In this document: piece by piece, positions 2,955-50,243 of the stretch
How positions within the stretch are numbered: the stretch's first letter is position 1
Layout of the letters: every line of letters begins with the position of its first letter
NCBI GenBank assembly: GCA_011033025.1
Contig: WFMF01000013.1
Coordinates: forward strand, 124,001 to 188,000
Direction: 5' to 3'
DNA from: Beroe forskalii
Taxonomy: Eukaryota; Ctenophora; Nuda; Beroida; Beroidae
Length of the DNA: 64,000 nucleotides
Program-made: the position numbers and the translations under genes
The notes under the pieces: generated by a model
Told to the model about the DNA's origin: nothing
What the model saw: the letters and a program-made list of their open reading frames with translations, nothing else
The model's database searches: none

Positions 2955-5027
2955 TCACCTCCCTTCTCCGTTTATGATAAGTTTGTTACCCTCGCACACC
3001 ACACCACGCCGTACAGACTGCGACAGAACGTTACAGAAACTCTGATAGTTTATCTTATTGTAACTCAAGTCAGCACACTTCACTACGGCATGCAGTGCTG
3101 TGACAGTTTCTGGTGTGATACCAGCTCCTCTACAGTTCTGTAGGACTACTGTAGGCGGAGGAGCGAGAGTCAGGGTGGAAATACCGGAGGGTCCGAGAGG
3201 GTTGGAGGACAGGTCCAGGACGGACAGGTTGGGGAAGAGTTGTACGAGATCCAGCACTGAATCTCCCGTTATGTGGTTGTGGGGGCATTTTAGTGTGGTT
3301 ATGTTAGGGAGGTTGGAAAGATGGGGCTTGAAGTTAGTATCGTTCAAACTACAGTTCTCTAGACACAGAGATTCGAGGGAAGCAGGAAAGGTGATGCCTG
3401 AGTCCTCAATGCTGGTCCCTCCAATTGCCAAGTCCTTGAGATTCTTAGGAAACTCAGGATATTGTGTCATGTGGTTTTGTGATAGATCAAGGTGGGATAG
3501 AGTAGAGTCTCTGAACTTCTGAGCCAGCTCTGGAGTTAGCTGGGAGGAGGTGAGTGTGCAACATTTTGCAGACAGTTTGTCTAGTTCAGGCAGGGAGACA
3601 GCCAGCTCCACAAGGGCAGACAGGCAGTGGGATATACCATTGAAGTCAAGGTACAGTCTCTGCAAAGGGAGTTTAGAGAGAGCCTCAGATACCTTGAGGA
3701 AGTTAGCATTGCTAACCCCACACCCGGACACGTTCAGAGAGGTAAGAGATGTGAGGGTGGGAAGAACACTGCAAAACGTGGTGCACACTTCCTTAGACAA
3801 CCTGTTAAACGATATGTCCAGAGTAGTTAGAGTGACACAGGATAGAATGGTCGTAAACAGACATTCCAGCTGCTGGTGTGATGCGAGGGACTTAGTAAGT
3901 CTGATACTGGACCCACTGCCATCAATGACATCTCTGAGAACATCTTCCACCCCCAATCTGGAGCAAGTTTCCTGATACTTGTGCAGGAGTCCCACATGTT
4001 CATCCTCCTCCACCTCCCCTACCAACTCATCTCCATCCATAAGCAACTCAGCTGCTGAATCCTCCCCCGCTAACTCAGCTCCGTCACTGGTCTTCAGGTT
4101 CAACTTGGGCAAGATGCCAAGTTTAGCTCGGTATCGTTGAGCAGCTTCACCAGCCAAGTCGGCGATGGTTTGTTCAGCTTTGACAGGCATTAGGAAGAGA
4201 GTGTTTCTGATTTTGACCTTGACTCTGAGTTTGAGCGCAGGAACAACAGGTTGTGGTAGGATGTGGGTTGTGATGACAGGAGGAGCAACTGGGGGAGGTG
4301 GGTGGGATACAGGAGTTATGGGTGCCGGGGTTTTAACGGTCGGCGTTACGACAGATGTCTTCTTCTGAGAGAAGGTCTGCTTCTGTCTCTTCATTTCGTG
4401 GTTGCTTCTCGTCAGATCGATATCGGGATGTTTGCGTTTAACAGGAGAGGCGGGGGATTCCCAACTGTCTTTTCTACTCAGAGAGTCAGAATTCCTGGAT
4501 CTAGTTGGCTCTGAGAGTCTGTGCTTACCAAGTTTTGAAGGTTTGCTTCTGGCAGGATCAGATGATCTCTGCTTTGGGGGTTGGCAGAGTCTGTCCACTG
4601 TAGCGAGCATCGTGTTTTCTTTGTTGTGAGACATTCCTCTCCAGACTGAAGTGAGAGTAGGTTTCTCTGACTGCTCCTTGTCTGCTTGGTGTCTGTCCGT
4701 CTGGTTTTTCTCAGACTGGTGTCTGCTCGATTGCTCCCTGTCAGACTGGTATCTCTCTAACTGATTTCTGCCTGGCTGAGATGAGTCGTATTCCTCTGAA
4801 GTAAAGATATCACCCAGTTCCAGCTTGGCATGTTGTTGAGGTTTAGGAGGACATACAATGACCGGAGGGTTCTTGCTGACTTCCTTCAGATAATCTCTGA
4901 TTTGTCGTCTGTTGTCAGAGTTGCCATCTTCTCCAGCATCATCTTCCTCTTCGAGGATGTTGTCAACAAGTTGTAATGCTGTCCTACCCTCGTCATCTTT
5001 AGCAAGGGTGTGAGCTCCGTGTTCTAC
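2955..5027 (-). CDS. TONSL: TONSL last exon: end of ankyrin domain, linker, ubiquitin-like domain, LRRs
   Basis: Exon of 690 codons plus stop, entered at acceptor CAG|GTAGAACACGG (5028-5030). In order it holds the end of an ankyrin repeat (VEHGAHTLAKDDEGRTALQL), an acidic stretch, a long polar linker with repeated Ser/Asp/Arg/Gln blocks, a ubiquitin-like domain (from about LKLRVKVKIRNTLFLMPVKA), and 8-9 leucine-rich repeats (LTTLDISFNRLS, LSHLDLSQNHM, LSVLDLSSNPLG). This is the TONSL order. The family partners MMS22L and reads histone H4 unmethylated at K20 on newly replicated chromatin, promoting RAD51 loading. The final residues (NKLIINGEGR) are close to the family's usual end. Confidence 0.93.
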   Translation of the reverse strand, partial: VEHGAHTLAKDDEGRTALQLVDNILEEEDDAGEDGNSDNRRQIRDYLKEVSKNPPVIVCPPKPQQHAKLELGDIFTSEEYDSSQPGRNQLERYQSDREQSSRHQSEKNQTDRHQADKEQSEKPTLTSVWRGMSHNKENTMLATVDRLCQPPKQRSSDPARSKPSKLGKHRLSEPTRSRNSDSLSRKDSWESPASPVKRKHPDIDLTRSNHEMKRQKQTFSQKKTSVVTPTVKTPAPITPVSHPPPPVAPPVITTHILPQPVVPALKLRVKVKIRNTLFLMPVKAEQTIADLAGEAAQRYRAKLGILPKLNLKTSDGAELAGEDSAAELLMDGDELVGEVEEDEHVGLLHKYQETCSRLGVEDVLRDVIDGSGSSIRLTKSLASHQQLECLFTTILSCVTLTTLDISFNRLSKEVCTTFCSVLPTLTSLTSLNVSGCGVSNANFLKVSEALSKLPLQRLYLDFNGISHCLSALVELAVSLPELDKLSAKCCTLTSSQLTPELAQKFRDSTLSHLDLSQNHMTQYPEFPKNLKDLAIGGTSIEDSGITFPASLESLCLENCSLNDTNFKPHLSNLPNITTLKCPHNHITGDSVLDLVQLFPNLSVLDLSSNPLGPSGISTLTLAPPPTVVLQNCRGAGITPETVTALHAVVKCADLSYNKINYQSFCNVLSQSVRRGVVCEGNKLIINGEGR

Positions 5028-5380: not shown

Positions 5381-5741
5381 CCTACCAAGTAAGTGACGAT
5401 GTTGAGGTTCCCCCACTGCGCGACCTACCAAGTAAGTGACGATGTTGAGGTTCCCCCACCACTCACCAGATAAGTGACAATGTTGAGGTTCCCCCACCAC
5501 TCACCAGATAAGTGACAATGTTGAGGTTCCCCCACCACTCACCAGATAAGTGACAATGTTGAGGTTCCCCCACTGCGCGACCTACCAAGTAAGTGACGAT
5601 GTTGAGGTTCCCCCACCACTCACCAGATAAGTGACAATGTTGAGGTTCCCCCACTGCGCGACCTACCAAGTAAGTGACGATGTTGAGGTTCCCCCACCAC
5701 TCACCAGATAAGTGACAATGTTGAGGTTCCCCCACTGCGCG
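5381..5741. repeat. minisatellite made of TONSL exon end plus 5' splice site
   Basis: About nine copies of a roughly 40-bp unit. Read on the minus strand, each has the exon sequence TGGGGGAACCTCAACAT followed by a donor, in two alternating versions: TATCTG|GTGAGTGG and TACTTG|GTAGGTCG. The last copy (about 5705-5741) is the true 3' end of the ankyrin exon, the rest lie in the intron. The GTAGGT version also carries GCGCAG before TGGGGG, so units could look like mini-exons. Confidence 0.9.
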
Positions 5742-11042: not shown

Positions 11043-11372
11043 TGCTTCCAACTCTTAGGCTGTTTAGCTTTGGATTAGTTCATCAACTATAATTACATAG
11101 TTGAATATACAAACCAAAAATCCCTCTATTGAGTGGCAATATAATATCGTTCATACTATATTGCTATTTGTAACCCTGAGATATGGGCGGATCGGACAAC
11201 AGCACTTCTGTAGTTCTGTACTGTAGTTCGTAGATTGAAAAATGACTATAGCCATGGTATCTGTAGCCTATTTTTCCTTCTGAAATTAACTCTTCATGAT
11301 ATAGCCTATATAGTGGAAGAACATCGACAGGCAAAAAGTGGAAATGGAAATGAATATTAAAGTTGAAACAAA

Positions 11373-11757
11373 GCAGTTCGGTAAGTGGTTCAGGAAGCGT
11401 ACTTCAAGGAGCAGTTCGGTAAGTGGTTCAGGAAGCAGTAGCTTCAAAGGAGCAGTTCGGTAAGTGGTTCAGGAAGCGTACTTCAAGGAGCAGTTCGGTA
11501 AGTGGTTCAGGAAGCGTACTTCAAGGAGGTTCAGTAAAGTGGTTCAGGAAGCGTACTGAGGAGCAGTTCGGTAAGTGGTTCAGGAAGCGTAGCTAGGGAG
11601 CAGTTCGGTAAATGGTTCAGGGAAGCGTACTTCAAGGAGCAGTTCGGTAAGTGGTTCAGGAAGCGTACTTCAAGGAGCAGTTCGGTAAGTGGTTCAGGAA
11701 GCGTACTTCAAGGAGCAGTTCGGTAAGTGGTTCAGGAAGCGTACTTCAAGGAGCAGT
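11373..11757. repeat. 38-bp minisatellite, about 10 copies
   Basis: Unit GAGCAGTTCGGTAAGTGG + TTCAGGAAGCGTACTTCAAG, with a few short deletions and insertions. Every unit contains a consensus-like donor (GGTAAGTGG) and then TTCAGG, an acceptor-like sequence. No host exon was recognised next to it. Confidence 0.85.
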
Positions 11758-26795: not shown

Positions 26796-26898
26796 CTGTG
26801 GGAAATGTAACAATCAAGTAACGGTTTTAGGCCATGTTTGGGAACTTTTCATTGGTCATTGGACTTTGAGTGATAAGGAAAACCACGTTTCGACGTAC

Positions 26899-27071
26899 CT
26901 ATAGAAGCTTCAATAGCCTGAAGTCTGGTGACATCGTACTGTGTAACTATGGTAACTGCGCGGCCCCCCTTTCCAGCACGTGCTGTCCTTCCCACCCGGT
27001 GCACATAGTCTGTAGGTGAGGAGGGGGTGTTGTAGTTGATAACACACGACACACTCGGGATATCCAGTCCT
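26899..27071 (-). CDS. DDX49: DDX49 exon with helicase motif VI
   Basis: 173 bases. It starts in the innermost array unit (acceptor CTCCTCAG|AGGACTGG) and encodes [19 protein letters not shown], then [15 protein letters not shown] (motif VI), VTIVTQYDV and IEASI, ending at ATAG|GTACGT. Its first roughly 50 bases are the source of the array beyond it. Confidence 0.93.
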
Positions 27072-30000
27072 CTGAGGAGGGGTTTGTATTAGGTGAGGAG
27101 GGGGTGTTGTAGTTGATAACACACGACACACTCGGGATATCCAGTCCTCTGAGGAGGGGGTTTGTATTAGGTGAGGAGGGGGTGTTGTAGTTGATAACAC
27201 ACGACACACTCGGGATATCCAGTCCTCTGAGGAGGGGTTTGTATTAGGTGAGGAGGGGGTGTTGTAGTTGATAACACACGACACACTCGGGATATCCAGT
27301 CCTCTGAGGAGGGGTTTGTATTAGGTGAGGAGGGGGTGTTGTAGTTGATAACACACGACACACTCGGGATATCCAGTCCTCTGAGGAGGGGGTTTGTATT
27401 AGGTGAGGAGGGGTGTTGTAGTTGATAACACACGACACACTCGGGATATCCAGTCCTCTGAGGAGGGGTTTGTATTAGGTGAGGAGGGGGTGTTGTAGTT
27501 GATAACACACGACACACTCGGGATATCCAGTCCTCTGAGGAGGGGGTTTGTATTAGGTGAGGAGGGGTGTTGTAGTTGATAACACACGACACACTCGGGA
27601 TATCCAGTCCTCTGAGGAGGGTCCTATTAGGTGAGGAGGGGGTGTTGTAGTTGATAACACACGACACACTCGGGATATCCAGTCCTCTGAGGAGGGGTTT
27701 GTATTAGGTGAGGAGGGGGTGTTGTTGATAACACACGACACTCGGGATATCCAGTCCTCTGAGGAGGGGTTTGTATTAGGTGAGGAGGGGTGTTGTAGTT
27801 GATAACACACGACACACTCGGGATATCCAGTCCTCTGAGGAGGGGTTTGTATTAGGTGAGGAGGGGGTGTTGTAGTTGATAACACACGACACACTCGGGA
27901 TATCCAGTCCTCTGAGGAGGGTATTGTATTAGGTGAGGAGGGGGTGTTGTAGTTGATAACACACGACACACTCGGGATATCCAGTCCTCTGAGGAGGGGT
28001 TTGTATTAGGTGAGGAGGGGGTGTTGTAGTTGATAACACACGACACACTCGGGATATCCAGTCCTCTGAGGAGGGGTTTGTATTAGGTGAGGAGGGGGTG
28101 TTGTAGTTGATAACACACGACACACTCGGGATATCCAGTCCTCTGAGGAGGGGTTTGTATTAGGTGAGGAGGGGGTGTTGTAGTTGATAACACACGACAC
28201 ACTCGGGATATCCAGTCCTCTGAGGAGGGGTTTGTATTAGGTGAGGAGGGGTGTTGTAGTTGATAACACACGACACACTCGGGATATCCAGTCCTCTGAG
28301 GAGGGGTTTGTATTAGGTGAGGAGGGGGTGTTGTAGTTGATAACACACGACACACTCGGGATATCCAGTCCTCTGAGGAGGGTATTGTATTAGGTGAGGA
28401 GGGGGTGTTGTAGTTGATAAGGAGGGGTTGTATTTGACACACTCGGGATATCCAGTCCTCTGAGGAGGGGTTTGTATTAGGTGAGGAGGGGGGTGTTGTA
28501 GTTGATAACACACGACACACTCGGGATATCCAGTCCTCTGAGGAGGGGTTTGTATTAGGTGAGGAGGGGTGTTGTAGTTGATAACACACGACACACTCGG
28601 GATATCCAGTCCTCTGAGGAGGGTTTGTATTAGGTGAGGAGGGGGGTGTTGTAGTTGATAACACACGACACACTCGGGATATCCAGTCCTCTGAGGAGGG
28701 GGTTTGTATTAGGTGAGGAGGGGGTGTTGTAGTTGATAACACACGACACACTCGGGATATCCAGTCCTCTGAGGAGGGGTTTGTATTAGGTGAGGAGGGG
28801 TGTTGTAGTTGATAACACACGACACACTCAGGATATCCAGTCCTCTGAGGAGGGGTTTGTATTAGGTGAGGAGGGGGTGTTGTAGTTGATAACACACGAC
28901 ACACTCGGGATATCCAGTCCTCTGAGGAGGGGTTTGTATTAGGTGAGGAGGGGGTGTTGTAGTTGATAACACACGACACTCGGGATATCCAGTCCTCTGA
29001 GGAGGGGTTTGTATTAGGTGAGGAGGGGGTGTTGTAGTTGATAACACACGACACACTCGGGATATCCAGTCCTCTGAGGAGGGGTTTGTATTAGGTGAGG
29101 AGGGGGTGTTGTAGTTGATAACACACGACACACACTCGGGATATCCAGTCCTCTGAGGAGGGGTTTGTATTAGGTGAGGAGGGGGTGTTGTAGTTGATAA
29201 CACACGACACACTCGGGATATCCAGTCCTCTGAGGAGGTTTGTATTAGGTGAGGGGGTGTTGTAGTTGATAACACACGACACACCCGGGATATCCAGTCC
29301 TCTGAGGAGGGGTTTGTATTAGGTGAGGAGGGGGTGTTGTAGTTGATAACACACGACACACTCAGGATATCCAGTCCTCTGAGGAGGGGTTTGTATTAGG
29401 TGAGGAGGGGTGTTGTAGTTGATAACACGACACACTCAGGATATCCAGTCCTCTGAGGAGGGGTTTGTATTAGGTGAGGAGGGGGTGTTGTAGTTGATAA
29501 CACCACGACACACTCGGGATATCCAGTCCTCTGAGGAGGGGTTTGTATTAGGTGAGGAGGGGGTGTTGTAGTTGATAACACACGACACACTCGGGATATC
29601 CAGTCCTCTGAGGAGGGTATTGTATTAGGTGAGGAGGGGGTGTTGTAGTTGATAACACACGACACACTCAGGATATCCAGTCCTCTGAGGAGGGGCATGT
29701 ATTAGGTGAGGAGGGGGTGTTGTAGTTGATAACACACGACACACTCAGGATATCCAGTCCTCTGAGGAGGGGTTTGTATTAGGTGAGGAGGGGGTGTTGT
29801 AGTTGATAACACACGACACACTCGGGATATCCAGTCCTCTGAGGAGGGGGTTTGTATTAGGTGAGGAGGGGGTGTTGTAGTTGATAACACACACACACAT
29901 ATCAGTCCTCTGAGGAGGGTATTGTATCGTTTAGGTGAGGAGGGGTTGATAACACACGACACACTCGGGATATCCAGTCCTCTGAGGAGGGGTTTGTATT

Positions 30001-32256
30001 AGGTGAGGAGGGGTGTTGTAGTTGATAACACGACACACACCAGGATATCCAGTCCTCTGAGGAGGGGTTTGTATTAGGTGAGGTTGTAGGATAACACACG
30101 ACACACTCGGGATATCCAGTCCTCTGAGGAGGGGTTTGTATTAGGTGAGGAGGGGGTGTTGTAGTTGAGACACACTCGGGATATCCAGTCCTCTGAGGAG
30201 GGTTTGTATTAGGTGAGGAGGGGTGTTGTAGTTGATAACACGACACACTCGGGATATCCAGTCCTCTGAGGAGGGGTTTGTATTAGGTGAGGAGGGGTGT
30301 TGTAGTTGATAACACACCACACTCGGGATATCCAGTCCTCTGAGGAGGGGTTTGTATTAGGTGAGGAGGGGTGTTGTAGTTGATAACACGACACACTCGG
30401 GATATCCAGTCCTCTGAGGAGGGGGTTTGTATTAGGTGAGGAGGGGTGTTGTAGTTGATAACACACGACACACTCGGGATATCCAGTCCTCTGAGGAGGG
30501 GTTTGTATTAGGTGAGGAGGGGTGTTGTGGTTAGTAGTTGATAACACAATGACACACTCGATATCCAGTCCTCTGAGGAGGGGTTTGTATTAGGTGAGGA
30601 GGGGTGTTGTGGTTAACACGACACACTCGGGATATCCAGTCCTCTGAGGAGGGGGGTTTGTATTAGGTGAGGAGGGGTGTTGTAGTTGATAACACACACG
30701 ACACACTCGGGATATCCAGTCCTCTGAGGAGGGGTTGTATTAGGTGAGGAGGGTGTTGTAGCTTGATAACACACGACACACTGGGATATCCAGTCCTCTG
30801 AGGAGGGTTTGTATTAGGTGAGGAGGGGTGTTGTAGTTGATAACACACGACACACTCGGGATATCCAGTCCTCTGAGGAGGGGTCATTTGTATTAGGTGA
30901 GGAGGGGGTGTTGTAGTTGATAACACACGACACACTCGGGATATCCAGTCCTCTGAGGAGGGGTTTGTATTAGGTGAGGAGGGGTGTTGTAGTTGATAAC
31001 ACACGACACACTCGGGATATCCAGTCCTCTGAGGAGGGGTTTATATTAGGTGAGGAGGGGTGTTGTAGTTGATAACACACCACACTCGGGATATCCAGTC
31101 CTCTGAGGAGGGGTTTGTATTAGGTGAGGAGGGGTGTTGTAGTTGATAACACGACACACTCGGGATATCCAGTCCTCTGAGGAGGGTTTGTATTAGGTGA
31201 GGAGGGGTGTTGTAGTTGATAACACACGACACACTCGGGATATCCAGTCCTCTGAGGAGGGGTTTGTATTAGGTGAGGAGGGGTGTTGTAGTTGATAACA
31301 CACGACACACTCGGGATATCCAGTCCTCTGAGGAGGGGTTTGTATTAGGTGAGGAGGGGTGTTGTAGTTGATAACACACGACACACTCGGGATATCCAGT
31401 CCTCTGAGGAGGGTTTGTATTAGGTGAGGAGGGGTGTTGTAGTTGATAACACACGACACACTCGGGATATCCAGTCCTCTGAGGAGGGGTTTGTATTAGG
31501 TGAGGAGGGGGTGTTGTAGTTGATAACACACACACACTCGGGATATCCAGTCCTCTGAGGAGGGGTTTGTATTAGGTGAGGAGGGGGTGTTGTAGTTGAT
31601 AACACGACACACTCGGGATATCCAGTCCTCTGAGGAGGGGTTTATATTAGGTGAGGAGGGGGTGTTGTAGTTGATAACACACCACACACTCGGGATATCC
31701 AGTCCTCTGAGGAGGGGTTTTGTATTAGGTGAGGAGGGGTGTTGTAGTTGATAACACACGACACACTCGGGATATCCAGTCCTCTGAGGAGGGGTTTGTA
31801 TTAGGTGAGGAGGGGGTGTTGTAGTTGATAACACACGACACACTCGGGATATCCAGTCCTCTGAGGAGGGGTTTGTATTAGGTGAGGAGGGGTGTTGTAG
31901 TTGATAACACACGACACACTCGGGATATCCAGTCCTCTGAGGAGGGGGTTTGTATTAGGTGAGGAGGGGGGTGTTGTAGTTGATAACACACCACACACAC
32001 TCGGGATATCCAGTCCTCTGAGGAGGGGTTTGTATTAGGTGAGGAGGGGTGTTGTAGTTGATAACACACGACACACTCGGGATATCCAGTCCTCTGAGGA
32101 GGGGTTTGTATTAGGTGAGGAGGGTATGACACGACACACTCGGGATATCCAGTCCTCTGAGGAGGGGTTTGTATTAGGTGAGGAGGGGGTGTTGTAGTTG
32201 ATAACACACGACACACTCGGGATATCCAGTCCTCTGAGGAGGGGTTTGTATTAGGT
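27020..32256. repeat. about 68-copy, roughly 77-bp array derived from a DDX49 exon edge
   Basis: On the minus strand each unit reads CCTAATACAAACCCCTCCTCAG | AGGACTGGATATCCCGAGTG | TGTCGTGTGTTATCAACTAC | AACACCCCCTCCTCA. That is a branch-point-like CTAAT, a pyrimidine tract, a 3' splice acceptor, then exon coding for [18 protein letters not shown]. Unit length varies by a few bases through G-run slippage and small deletions. It fills the intron before exon 26899-27071. Confidence 0.95.
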
Positions 32257-32286
32257 AGGCTACGTTGACCGCCTCACACTTCCTAC

Positions 32287-32401
32287 CTGCTAGCTACATC
32301 TGTAGCGACCAGTATCTTGACCGCCTCACACTTGAACTTTGCCAAGGAGGAGAGTCTTTCGTACTGAGACAGCTGGGAGTGGAGAGCAGTACAAGGGAAA
32401 C
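32287..32401 (-). CDS. DDX49: DDX49 exon with helicase motif V
   Basis: 115 bases, acceptor TTGCAG|GTTTCC, donor GCTAGCAG|GTAGGA. Encodes [21 protein letters not shown] and [10 protein letters not shown]; a split Gly codon (G|GT) joins the previous exon and a split Arg codon (AG|A) joins the next, completing motif [13 protein letters not shown]. Confidence 0.94.
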
Positions 32402-39139: not shown

Positions 39140-42100
39140 CCAACTTTTGAAAATACCTTCGCAGGGCATGATTTTAGGGCAAAAGAAGGGCATATTAGAA
39201 GGGCAATTTTTAGGTGCCTTTTTGAAAAATCGCCAAATTTGGTACCTTTTGATGCCAAATTTGCTCATTTTTTGCCCTTTTTCTTACTTTCACCAGCAAA
39301 AAAGCGGTACCTTTCCGCAAATCTTTTAGTTTTGGTACCTTTTGAGGTCTGATTAAGAGATATCTGGCACCTTTTTCAAAACTGTCAAAATTGGTACCTT
39401 TTTGAAAACAACATCTTTCTAGATAGGTAGTGTAGCATCTAAAATAGGTACCTTTTTGAAGACAATGATTTCTCTAGACAAACATTTCTCTTATGTGAAA
39501 TGAGTACCTTTTCGAAAGCAATGATTTTCTCCATGGAAACTTTTGAAATAGGTACCTTTTTGAGAACAACCATTTTCTTGAAAAATAGGTACCTTTTTAG
39601 AAACTATCACTTTTTCAAGTGTGACTTTTGAAAAAGGTACCTCTTCGATCACAATGATTTTCTCCATTGAAACTTGTGAAATAAGAACCTTTTGAGAACA
39701 GCAATTTTCTTGAGAAATAGGTACCATTATAGAACCCTCTGCAGTTTTCATGCGGGTCTATAATGGATAGACACTTGCCTGATCGGGTCCATATTGGTTT
39801 AGACCCTCGCCCTACGGGCTCGGGCCAAAACCGGATACCACCCTTGGGCTTACGCCCTCGGGCAGTATCCCAAAATGGACCCGATAGGCGCGTGTCTATG
39901 TATTTTTTAGAAACTATCACTTTCTCAAGTGTAACTTTTGGAAAGGTACTTTTTCGAAAGCGATGATTTTCTCCATTGAAACTTGTGAAATGTGTACTTT
40001 TTTAGAACAAAAATTTTCTTGAGAAATAGGTACCTTTTTTAAAAACAATCACTTTCTCAAGCGTAACATTTGGAAAAGGTACATTTTAAAAAGCAATGAT
40101 TTTCTCCATTGTAACTTGTGACTTTGTGAAATAGGTACCTTTTCAAGAATAACAATTTTCTTGATGAGAAATAGGTACATTTTTTTAGAAACTATCACTT
40201 TCTCAAGTATAACTTTTGAAAAAGGTACCTTTTCGAAAGCAATATATTTCTCCATTGAAAAGTTGGAACTTGTGAAATAGGTACTTTTTTGAGAACAGCA
40301 TTTTTTAAAGAGTTAGGTACCTTTTTAGAAACTATCACTTTCTCAAGTGTAATTTTTGAAAAAGGTACCTTTTCGATAACAATGATTTTCTCCATTGAAA
40401 CTTGTGAAATAGGTACCTTTTTGAACCCAACAATTTTCTTGTGAAATAGGTGTACCTTTTTAGAAACTATCACTTTCTCGAGTGTAACTTTTGAAAAAGG
40501 TTCCTTTTCGATCACAATGATTTTATCCATTGTAACTTGTGAAATGGGTACCTTTTGGAGAACAGCAATTTTCTTGAGAAATAGGTACCTTTATAGAAAC
40601 TATCACTTTCTCAAGTGTAACTTTTGAAAAAGGTACCTTTAAGATCACAATGATTTTCTCCATTGAAACTTGTGAAATAGGTACCTTTTTGAGAAAAGTA
40701 TTTTTTTGAGAATTCGGTACCTTTTTAGAAACTATCGCTTTCTCAAGTGTAACTTTTGAAAAAGGTACCTTTTCGAAAGCAAAGATTTTCTCCGTTGAAA
40801 CTTGTGAAATAGGTACCTTATTGAGAACAGCAATTTTCTTGAGAATTAGGTACCTTTTTAGAAACTATCACTTTCTCAAGTGTGACTTTTGATTAAGGTA
40901 CCTTTTCAATTAAAATGATTTTCTCCATTGAAACTTGTGAAATAGGTACCTCTTTGAGAACATCAATTTTCTTGAGAAATAGGTACCTTTTTAGAAACTA
41001 TCACTTTCTCAAGTGTAACTTTTGAAAAAGTACCTTTTCGATCATCGAAACTTGAGAAATAGGTACATTTTTGAGAACAGCAATTTTTGAGAATTAGGAA
41101 CCTTTTTAGAAACTATCACTTTCTCAAGTGTAACTTATCAAAAAGGCACCTTTTCCAAAGCAAAGATTTTCTCCGTTGAAACTTGTGAAATTGGTACCTT
41201 ATTGAGAACAGCAATTTTCTTGAGAAATAGGTACCTTTTTGTAACTTTTGAAAAAGGTATCTTTCGATCACAATGATTTCATCCATTGTAACTTGTGAAA
41301 TAGGTACCTTTTGGAGAACAGCAATTTTCTTGAGAAATAGGTACCTTTTTAGAAACTATCACTTTTCAAGTGTAACTTTTGAAAAAGGTAATTTTTCGAT
41401 CACAATGATTTTCCATTGAAACTTGTGAAATAGGTACCTTATTGAGAACAGCAATTTTCTTGAGAATTAGGTACCTTTTTAGAAACTATCACTTTCTCGA
41501 GTGTGACTTTTGATTAAGGTACCTTTTCAATCACAATGATTTTCTCCATTGAAACTTGTGAAATAGGTACCTTTTTGAGAACATCAATTTTCTTGAGAAA
41601 TAGGTACCTTTTTAGAAACTATCACTTTCTCAAGTGTAACTTTTGAAAAAGTACCTTTTCGATCACAATGATTTTCTCCATTGAAACTTGTGAAATATGT
41701 ACCTTTTCGAGAACAGAATTTTTTTTGAGAATTAGGTACCTTTTTAGAAACTATCACTTTCTCGAGTGTACTTTTTGAAAAAGGTACTATTTCGATCACA
41801 ATGATTTTCTCCATTGAAACTTGTGAAATAAGTACCTTTTGGAGAACAACAATTTTCTTGAGAAAAAGGTACCATTTTAGAAACTATCACTTTCTCAAGT
41901 GTAACTTTTGAAAAAGTACCTTTTCGATCACAATGATTTCCTCCATTGAAACTTGTGAAATATGTACCTTTTTGAGAACAATTTTCGAGAAATAGGTACC
42001 TTTTTAGAAACTATCGCTTTCTCAAGTGTAACTTTGAAAAAGGTACCTTTTCGAAAGCAAAGATTTTCTCCGTTGAAACTTGTGAAATAGGTACCTTATT

Positions 42101-44170
42101 GAGAACAGCAATTTTCTTGAGAATTAGGTACCTTTTTAGAAACTATCACTTTCTCAACTTTTTGAAATAAGGTACCTTTTCAATCACAATGATTTTCTCC
42201 ATTGAAACTTGTGAAATAGGTACCTTTTGAGAACAGCAATTTTCTTGAGAAATAGGTACCTTTTTAGAAACTATCACTTTCTCAAGTGTAACTTTTGAAA
42301 AAGGTACCTTTTCGATCACAATGATTTTCTCCATTGAAACTTGTGAAATAGGTACCTTTGGGAGAACAGCAAATTTTTTTGAGAATTAGGTACCTTTTTA
42401 GAAACTATCACTTTCTCAAGTGTAACTTTTGATGAAGGTACCTTTTCAATCACAATGATTTTCTCCATTGAAACTTGTGAAATAGGTACCTCTTTGAGAA
42501 CATCAATTTTCTTGAGAAATAGGTACCTTTTTAGAAACTATCACTTTCTCAAGTGTAACTTTTGAAAAAGTACCGTCACAATGATTTTCTCCATTGAAAC
42601 TTGTTACCTTTTCGATCAGCAATGAATTAGGTACCTTTTTAGAAACTGTTTCTCAAGTGTAATTTTGATCACAATGATTTCATTGAAATAGGTACCTTTT
42701 GGAGAACAATAATTTTCTTGAGAAATAGTACCATTTTAGAAACTATTTTCTGAAGTGTAACTTTCGAAAAAGGTACCTTTCGATCACAATGATTTTCTCC
42801 ATTGAAACTTGTGAAATAGGTACCTTTTGGAGAACAACAATTTTCTTGAGAAATAGGTACCAATTCAGAAACTATCGCTTTCTCAAGTGTAACTTTTGAA
42901 AAAGGTACCTTTTCGAAAGCAAAGATTTTCTCCGTTGAAACTTGTGAAATAGGTACCTTATTGAGAACAGCAATTTTCTTGAGAATTAGGTACCTTTTTA
43001 GAAACTATCACTTTCTCAAGTGTGACTTTTGATTATGGTACCTTTTCAATTACAATGATTTTCTCCATTGAAACTTGTGAAATAGGTACCTCTTTGAGAA
43101 CATCAATTTTCTTGAGAAATAGGTACCTTTTAGAAACTATCACTTTCTCAAGTGTAACTTTTGAAAAAGTACCTTTCGATCACAATGATTTTCTCCATTG
43201 AAACTTGTGAAATATGTACCTCTTCGAGAAACAATTTTTTGAGAATTGTTCCTTTTTAGAAACTATCACTTTCCCAAGTTTTTTGAAAAAGGTACTATTT
43301 CGATTTTCTCCATTGAAACTTGTGAAATAGGTACCTTTTCGAGAACAATTTTCTTGAGAATTAGGTACCTTTTTAGAAATTATCATTTTCTCAAGTGTAA
43401 CTTTTACCTTTTCGAAAGCAATGATTTTCTCCATTGAAGCTTCTGAAATAAGTAAGTACCTTTTCGATTTTTAGAAAACAATTATTTCTTTAGACTTTTA
43501 GAGGGTACCTTTTCAAGTGTAACCTAAGAAATAGGTACTTTTTGAAAAAATAATTTCCTCTTTTTGAAATAAATTACTTACGTAATAAGCTTACGTAATA
43601 AGCTTACGTAATAAGCTTTCCAAAACAAGGACTTTTTCTAGTGTAACTCATGAAATGGCACCTTGTTCATTATTGAAACACTCATTTTCAATAACTCTAG
43701 TGAAAAGGTGGAAGTTGTGGAGGGTGTTCCTTTTTAAAAACAGCCATTTTCTCAATAGTGTAACCTGTGAAAAAGGTACCTTTTTGAAAATAAACAATTT
43801 TCTTTAGTGAAACTTGTGAAGTGAGCAACTTTTTGAAAAAAAAACATCTAGTGTAACTCATGAAATATGTACAGTTTTGAATTAACAATCACTTTATCCA
43901 GTGTAACTTGTGGAATAGCTGAATAGGCAACTTTTTGAAAACAAAGATTTTCAATTCTTGTTTCTAGTTATTAGTTAACCTTCTTGAAAACAACCACTTC
44001 CTCTGGTGTTACTTGTGAATAAGTACCTTTGAAAAATTATTTTATTTTTTAAAACAGATTAAAGAACTAATAATAATCGGTTTTCTCTGGTGTATCTTGT
44101 GAAATGAGAACTGTTTTGAAACCATTTTTAGCATGGATTAGCATATTATTATCTTGTAAAATGGGCACCA
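39140..44170. repeat. 5-kb higher-order array with GGTACC in each subunit
   Basis: Three related subunits, each starting GGTACCTTTT, alternate: (a) AGAAACTATCACTTTCTCAA, (b) GATCACAATGATTTTCTCC, (c) GAGAACAGCAATTTTCTTGA. Each is about 36-48 bp and together they give a period of about 130 bp. The order is most regular from 40200 to 43430 and decays outwards. Confidence 0.9.
39767..39899. mobile_element. MITE inside the GGTACC array
   Basis: ATAGACACTTGCCTGATCGG and CCGATAGGCGCGTGTCTAT form imperfect terminal inverted repeats. Inside, GGGTCCAT/ATGGACCC and CCGAGGGC-type arms continue the pairing. About 133 bp, no ORF. Confidence 0.6.
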
Positions 44171-48522: not shown

Positions 48523-48676
48523 CGAGTTTCTTGAGTCCGATGGTGAGTATCTGGGCAGCTCTACAGGAGTGCGTGAAGACAATGCAGGTGTCCTCCTGGC
48601 CCTGGAGGAGGTGGGTCAGTGCCCCGTTCCGCAGCAACTCAGGGACCAGCACGTACTCCTGTTTCAAGGTCTCCAC
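48523..48676 (-). CDS. DDX49: DDX49 exon with helicase motif IV
   Basis: 154 bases, acceptor TTCCAG|GTGGAG, donor CTCG|GTGAGT. Encodes VETLKQEYVLVPELLRNG, CIVFTHSCRAAQIL (motif IV region) and IGLKKL. Phase 0 at its start, with one base of a split Gly codon at its end. Confidence 0.93.
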
Positions 48677-48721: not shown

Positions 48722-50135
48722 AGTTCTCATCTCACATGTGCTGAGTGATCTCACATGTGCTGAGTGATCTCACATGTGCTGAGTGATCTCACATGTGCTG
48801 AGTGATCTCACATGTGCTGAGTGATCTCACATGTGCTGAGTGATCTCACATGTGCTGAGTGATCTCACATGTGCTGAGTAATCTCACATGTGCTGAGTGA
48901 TATCACATGTGCTGAGTGATCTCACATGTGCTGAGTGATCTCACATGTGCTGAGCGATCTCACATGTGCTGAGTGATCTCACATGTGCTGAGTGATCTCA
49001 CATGTGCTGAGCGATCTCACATGTGCTGAGTGATCTCACATGTGCTGAGTGATCTCACATGTGCTGAGTGATCTCACATGTGCTGAGTGATCTCACATGT
49101 GCTGAGTGATATCACATGTGCTGAGTGATATCACATGTGCTGAGTGATCTCACATGTGCTGAGTGATCTCACATGTGCTGAGTGATATCACATGTGCTGA
49201 GTGATATCACATGTGCTAAGTGATCTCACATGTGCTGAGTGATATCACATGTGCTGAGTGATATCACATGTGCTAAGTGATCTCACATGTGCTGAGTGAT
49301 CTCACATGTGCTGAGTGATATCACATGTGCTGAGTGATCTCACATGTGCTGAGTGATCTCACATATGCTGAGTGATCTCACATGTGCTGAGTGATCTCAC
49401 ATGTGCTGAGTGATCTCACATGTGCTGAGTGATCTCACATGTGCTGAGTGATCTCACATGTGCTGAGTGATCTCACATGTGCTGAGTGATATCACATGTG
49501 CTGAGTGATCTCACATGTGCTGAGTGATCTCACATGTGCTGAGTGATCTCACATGTGCTGAGTGATCTCACATGTGCTGAGTGATATCACATGTGCTGAG
49601 TGATCTCACATGTGCTGAGTGATCTCACATGTGCTGAGTGATCTCACATGTGCTGAGTAATCTCACATGTGCTGAGTGATCTCACATGTGCTGAGTGATC
49701 TCACATGTGCTGAGTGATCTCACATGTGCTGAGTGATCTCACATGTGCTGAGTGATCTCACATGTGCTGAGTGATCTCACATGTGCTGAGTGATCTCACA
49801 TGTGCTGAGTGATCTCACATGTGCTGAGTGATCTCACATGTGCTGAGTGATCTCACATGTGCTGAGTGATCTCACATGTGCTGAGTGATCTCACATGTGC
49901 TGAGTGATCTCACATGTGCTGAGTGATCTCACATGTGCTGAGTGATCTCACATGTGCTGAGTGATCTCACATGTGCTGAGTGATCTCACATGTGCTGAGT
50001 GATCTCACATGTGCTGAGTGATCTCACATGAGCTGAGTGATCTAACATGTGCTGAGTGATCTCACATGTGCTGAGTGATGTCACATGTGCTGAGTGATCT
50101 CACATGTGCTGAGTGATCTCACATGTGCTGAGCGA
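48722..50135. repeat. 19-bp satellite, about 74 copies
   Basis: Unit CTCACATGTGCTGAGTGAT with few variants (ATCACATGTG, GAGCGAT, GTGCTAAG) that are partly grouped, suggesting stepwise spread. It occupies most of the 1.9-kb intron between exons 48523-48676 and 50563-50745. Confidence 0.97.
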
Positions 50136-50243
50136 TTAATCTAAAGAATAATGTTGACAGCTTGGTGATAATAATAATAATAATGGTGGGACAGCTCGGT
50201 AGGCCATAACTGTGCGACGTTCCGCGCCTGCTATAATTACAGT

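Follow-up and report, generated by a model that had tools for sequence, protein, structure and literature searches.

Minisatellites that straddle exon-intron borders have been described in amphioxus under the name "mirages", which have the same form as the array reported here, show length instability and are reported not to disturb regular splicing (PMC3087553); a similar case in the lancelet PGBD5 gene is also reported to be spliced normally (PMC3902484). Human genes that lie in segmental duplications likewise have internal tandem repeats at their exon-intron boundaries, where they can give alternative splicing (PMC2812944), and intron gain has been attributed to tandem genomic duplication (PMC4974935) and, in Cryptococcus, to repeat expansion (PMC2395259). 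Here we describe a 69-acceptor border array in the ctenophore Beroe forskalii, in an intron of a gene that we take to be DDX49. The window, meaning the whole stretch of DNA analysed, comprises 64,000 nucleotides (assembly GCA_011033025.1, contig WFMF01000013.1, positions 124,001 to 188,000), and coordinates below are positions within it.

The kind of structure is already known, and the DDX49 array is an extreme member of it in another animal lineage. It shares with the amphioxus mirages a tandem unit that lies across an exon border and carries a splice signal (here 22 nt of intron plus 55 nt of exon), a unit length within the range of tens to ~160 bp, and an authentic border that is intact at one end and gives the normal frame (the last of the 69). 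Also shared is occurrence in several genes of one genome and at both kinds of border, namely acceptors in 5 of 36 sampled exon matches and donors in a TONSL-like gene. It differs in size (the two BflGb6 haplotypes have 6 and 3 repeat units, the present array 69 acceptors) and in coming from a different animal lineage, where it is known from the DNA of one assembly. The human boundary repeats resemble it in being able to multiply splice signals at a border; however, they are tied to recent paralogues and are said to create new introns (PMC2812944), whereas the last exons of DDX49 match once in the assembly. Duplicated DNA with splice signals also alters intron content in the intron-gain cases (PMC4974935, PMC2395259), but at DDX49 an existing intron has been lengthened and no new intron is shown. 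Among titles and abstract openings we found no border array of such size, nor one in a non-bilaterian; most subscription literature lay outside this search.

The gene lies on the minus strand, and the features around the array are as follows.

32287-32401, minus strand: DDX49 exon preceding the array, ending AGCAG (exon boundaries; frame open over seven exons).
32281-32286, minus strand: 5′ splice site GTAGGA of the expanded intron (sequence).
32265-32281, minus strand: 17-nt copy (AAGTGTGAGGCGGTCAA) of upstream-exon sequence just within the intron, the exon original being at 32333-32317 (sequence).
27013-32256, minus strand: minisatellite of 77-bp units with 69 acceptors in total (Tandem Repeats Finder (TRF), unit parse and end sequences).
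32234-32235, minus strand: AG of the first acceptor, giving a 53-nt intron if paired with the donor (sequence).
27072-27073, minus strand: AG of the last acceptor, the sole open-frame choice among the 69 (splice-and-translate test).
26899-27071, minus strand: DDX49 exon following the array, its first 59 nt lying in the last array unit (open frame; Pfam Helicase_C in the spliced protein).

TRF called 67.2 copies of a 77-bp unit at 27013-32124 (93% match, score 8887), and the unit pattern continues past this call to 32256, with the last unit extending into the exon. The preliminary description had located the array at 27020-32401; an array is present there, but its extent is 27013-32256, and 32287-32401 is the upstream exon. 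The intron that bears it is 5215 nt long (32286-27072), with a 30-nt start ahead of the array. In gene sense, each unit consists of the intron's final 22 nt (CCTAATACAAACCCCTCCTCAG), which hold a branch-point-like CTAAT, a short C/T tract and CTCAG, followed by the 55 nt with which the next exon begins; the array is made of copies of the gene's own 3′ exon border, as had been proposed. The junction CTCAG/AGGACTG (slash, splice site) occurs exactly 69 times on the minus strand, 68 of these being extra, with the first exonic base at 32233 for the first acceptor and at 27071, the true exon start, for the last. CTAAT precedes 68 of the 69 by no more than 30 nt, in keeping with the near-universal motif order noted earlier. 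The 68 acceptor-to-acceptor intervals range from 63 to 87 nt (77 nt in 26 cases) and include none of double length, so every unit has kept its acceptor. Distinct sequences number 40 among the 68 units, and a 26-nt acceptor window is identical in 44 of the 69, the true acceptor among them. Neither AGGT nor GTRAG occurs within the array, which on sequence grounds rules out mini-exons or recursive splicing inside it.

In a test of every acceptor, the upstream exon was spliced in silico to each of the 69 in turn, and the product was translated as far as the last base of the exon that follows. The last acceptor alone gave an open frame; a stop was met with the remaining 68, as expected from the earlier view that a single acceptor yields the right protein. 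Frameshifts had been predicted for the wrong acceptors as a consequence of varying unit length. They do occur, with 50 of the 68 intervals changing the frame, but even the basic unit length of 77 nt is not divisible by three, and all 68 choices end in a stop. The 24 upstream acceptors that add a multiple of three nucleotides run into stops as well, owing to the TAA that CTAAT contributes to one frame and to the 50 frame-shifting intervals. The same two properties rule out a hidden coding repeat.

Seven exons within 51378-26351 splice into one open frame with no stops, encoding a protein with Pfam DEAD and Helicase_C domains; no exons were found for its N-terminal part. The spliced protein is 53.7% identical to a sequence taken to be human DDX49 (376 aligned positions, 414 bits). 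Its best solved-structure match is CshA, at 246 bits, and no DDX49 was present among the best 60 of the 74 solved-structure sequences matched, so the gene name follows from the match to that presumed human sequence. A 633-base piece with the last two exons gave one match in the genome, and this search revealed no second haplotype with a different array length.

The ends of the array indicate how it could have begun. Its donor-side end reads CTACCTAATAC, its exon-side end TCACCTACAG and the junctions between units TCACCTAATAC; both ends share ACCTA, and duplication of the stretch between the two 5-bp ACCTA words yields the unit exactly. The donor lies 53 nt from the first acceptor, and for this reason the intron was probably once short, at about 53 nt, which would imply growth of roughly 100-fold. 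The 17 nt of upstream exon found just inside the intron (32281-32265) are a second trace of border duplication. Identity to the consensus falls from 99.7% in units 65-68, beside the exon, to 89.3% in units 25-32. Regional variants are present, a five-C form dominating on the exon side and a four-C form on the donor side, and indels lie mostly in C-runs and GT-rich runs. The 56 substitutions fall on 25 of the 77 unit positions, with none at the last ten and first seven positions around the acceptor. Higher-order structure is slight: units two apart are a little more alike (z 3.5), while the other lags from 1 to 10 give z of -0.7 to 1.3.

This anatomy leads us to infer an exon-border-seeded minisatellite of the mirage kind, a reading to which we assign a probability of about 0.85. 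A short intron and a 3′ exon head would have carried ACCTA as a 5-bp direct repeat flanking the acceptor; slippage or a microhomology event would then have duplicated the stretch between the two words, and unequal exchange with further slippage would have raised the copies to 69 acceptors. The preliminary description had suggested slippage or rolling amplification from the border. The single-copy ends and the ACCTA words make an origin at the border readable and slippage (or unequal exchange) plausible, whereas nothing supports rolling amplification. Persistence would be nearly neutral provided that the spliceosome picks the last acceptor, since this alone rebuilds the original mRNA. The array may affect splicing fidelity, as the preliminary description proposed, but normal splicing is reported for published arrays of this kind (PMC3087553, PMC3902484). 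Under exon definition, the downstream donor at 26898 would select the acceptor nearest to it, which would win over 68 near-equals spread across 5.2 kb upstream.

The border-array anatomy recurs in other genes, and the DDX49 case is not isolated. Genome searches gave at least 96 Helicase_C and at least 135 kinase matches, scored from the best candidates, from which 36 exon matches were sampled (27 in 20 loci and 9 in 9 loci, with three kinase exons and with DDX49 itself excluded). The sample is small, and the exons were selected, almost all having short open frames. Five of the 36 have their own acceptor and exon start tandemly copied, with 2 to 23 acceptors. A CHD1-like gene has 71-bp units and 23 acceptors, of which one gives an open frame; a DDX55-like gene has 6 acceptors by the strict motif (7.2 copies by TRF), a RecQ-like gene 5, an SNF2-like gene 4 in the stretch examined, with the array running past its end, and a DDX51-like gene 2. 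The last four names are presumptive and draw on Pfam Helicase_C. Twelve near misses (L018, L019, L023, L026, L027, L031, L032, L034, L037, L040, L044 and L047) were rejected, their repeats being judged intronic or wholly exonic rather than border-spanning. No donor-side copies were seen among the 36 in the tested zone (the match plus 60 nt), from which farther exon ends could escape. Separately, in the CHD1-like gene (L038 and L024, G000:C737, 38434-39992) the donor region CGGACATCAGGTAA recurs inside the intron too.

A donor-side array is present within the window itself.

5385-5741, minus strand: border array of a TONSL-like gene with 9 tandem donors (CACTTATCTG/GTGAGT or CACTTACTTG/GTAGGT, spacing 38 and 43 nt) (TRF, sequence).

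This array, the mirror image of the DDX49 acceptor array, follows an ankyrin exon in a gene with Pfam Ank and LRR matches that is presumably TONSL. Its first donor joins the next exon, which starts at 5027, in frame (VEHGAHTLAK); of the eight later donors, seven lead to a stop and one (+38 nt) to a frame shift.

Tandem arrays are abundant in this genome. In six arbitrary 10-kb pieces they account for 12-17% of the bases, depending on the cut-offs; the figure is 18-23% for the window and 6-9% for the 20 helicase loci. Exon borders were not seen to be enriched over general array coverage (5 of 36, or 14%, against 12-17% in the arbitrary pieces), and so the border hits need no special cause. Nor did donor motifs show enrichment as genome-wide array seeds: three tandem GGTRAGT occurred 5975 times (2432 + 3543), against 7994 (3749 + 4245) for the backwards pattern. 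Within a large minisatellite load, border arrays look like the portion that is tolerated, because the original mRNA can still be made when the repeated unit contains the border. By the preliminary description, a source of the unit elsewhere in the genome would have refuted its reading. A genome search with 388 bases of array DNA gave 20 matches, all in the DDX49 array; the search scored the best candidates only, skipped very common words and would miss diverged copies. Within those limits, a mobile element or dispersed satellite was rejected on this result, as were introner elements, which place the same intron sequence in many genes.

Two observations are not accounted for by plain neutrality. 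The clean acceptor core has a probability of ~4e-4 if mutated positions fell evenly, and plain neutrality does not predict it; the block was, however, picked post hoc, positions 51-62 are equally free of substitutions and mutation is clustered in GT- and C-rich runs. Given that post hoc choice and this clustering, we claim no selection from the pattern. The lean towards acceptors (5 acceptor-side against 0 donor-side in 36) is likewise not explained by neutrality alone, although the numbers are small. A rival reading is a regulatory ladder, in which upstream acceptors would be partly used, the resulting premature stops would tune DDX49 output through nonsense-mediated decay and copy number would act as the dial. 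The stops at all 68 upstream acceptors, the unsubstituted core over 68 units and the 44 identical acceptor windows, the true one included, are what such a ladder would show. Yet stops are near-automatic from frame-shifting units with TAA in one frame, comparable arrays turn up in other genes about as often as array coverage of the genome would give, and published mirages are said to leave splicing undisturbed (PMC3087553, PMC3902484). We consider this explanation highly improbable, and give very little credence to its genome-wide form, a standing population of acceptor ladders, acceptor-biased and kept by selection or homogenisation, with ladder length at DDX49 tuning helicase output via stop-containing transcripts.

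The copy number might instead be largely a product of assembly, a real but short border duplication having been inflated or scrambled. Variation chiefly in C-runs and GT-rich runs is what sequencing error would give, irregularity is greatest in units 25-32 (89% identity to consensus), and there is precedent for a wrong draft assembly of a mirage (PMC3087553). Against this, 40 of the 68 units are distinct, with regional five-C and four-C variants, and the same anatomy is found at independent loci of the assembly. We regard such inflation as very improbable, and it is unlikely that the array is entirely an assembly artefact, as the preliminary description had allowed in part. Also conceivable is birth of the intron itself by tandem duplication of exon sequence (the Rogers model, named in PMC3087553). 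The 17 nt of upstream exon repeated just inside the intron would fit, as would the recurrence of the intronic CCCCTCCTCA in the exon head, but the recurring words are short and AGGT is absent from the array, and we hold this to be improbable.

Other repeats in the window include a second array in DDX49.

48729-50136, minus strand: array of 74 copies of a 19-bp unit in an upstream intron of DDX49, with 72 acceptor-like CTCAG words (TRF).

It is not a copy of its own border: the true acceptor is TTCCAG/GTGGAG, with the exon starting at 48676, and the array ends ~50 bp before that acceptor. A 133-bp tandem family occupies 39904-43454 in a 16-kb DDX49 intron, with a very similar one just left of the window (L009, 2196-5949), and a 38-bp x 10 array at 11372-11757 has CGGTAAGTGG in many units. 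A tRNA search of the window found none. Elsewhere in the assembly, a divergent COX1 on a 13,339-bp contig that is probably the mitochondrial genome (L048, G000:C1134) contains four in-frame TGA codons, read as Trp. Its AGR codons stand at positions presumed to be conserved for Arg and are apparently read as that residue, as in genetic code table 4 and not tables 5 and 13. This code usage is presumably unlike that of amphioxus and points to a non-bilaterian animal, perhaps a ctenophore.

As read from its sequence, the DDX49 intron would confront the spliceosome with dozens of near-identical, well-formed acceptors in a conserved helicase gene, of which only the farthest is predicted to be productive. 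The two standard models of splice-site choice make opposite predictions here, pairing across the intron favouring the first acceptor (a 53-nt intron) and pairing across the exon the last (a 173-nt exon). The 69-rung ladder, together with the smaller ladders elsewhere in the genome (2 to 23 acceptors), offers a natural test of that choice. The recurrence of these arrays suggests that border minisatellites of the lancelet type are common in a distant animal, and bears on gene prediction and on ideas of how introns grow.

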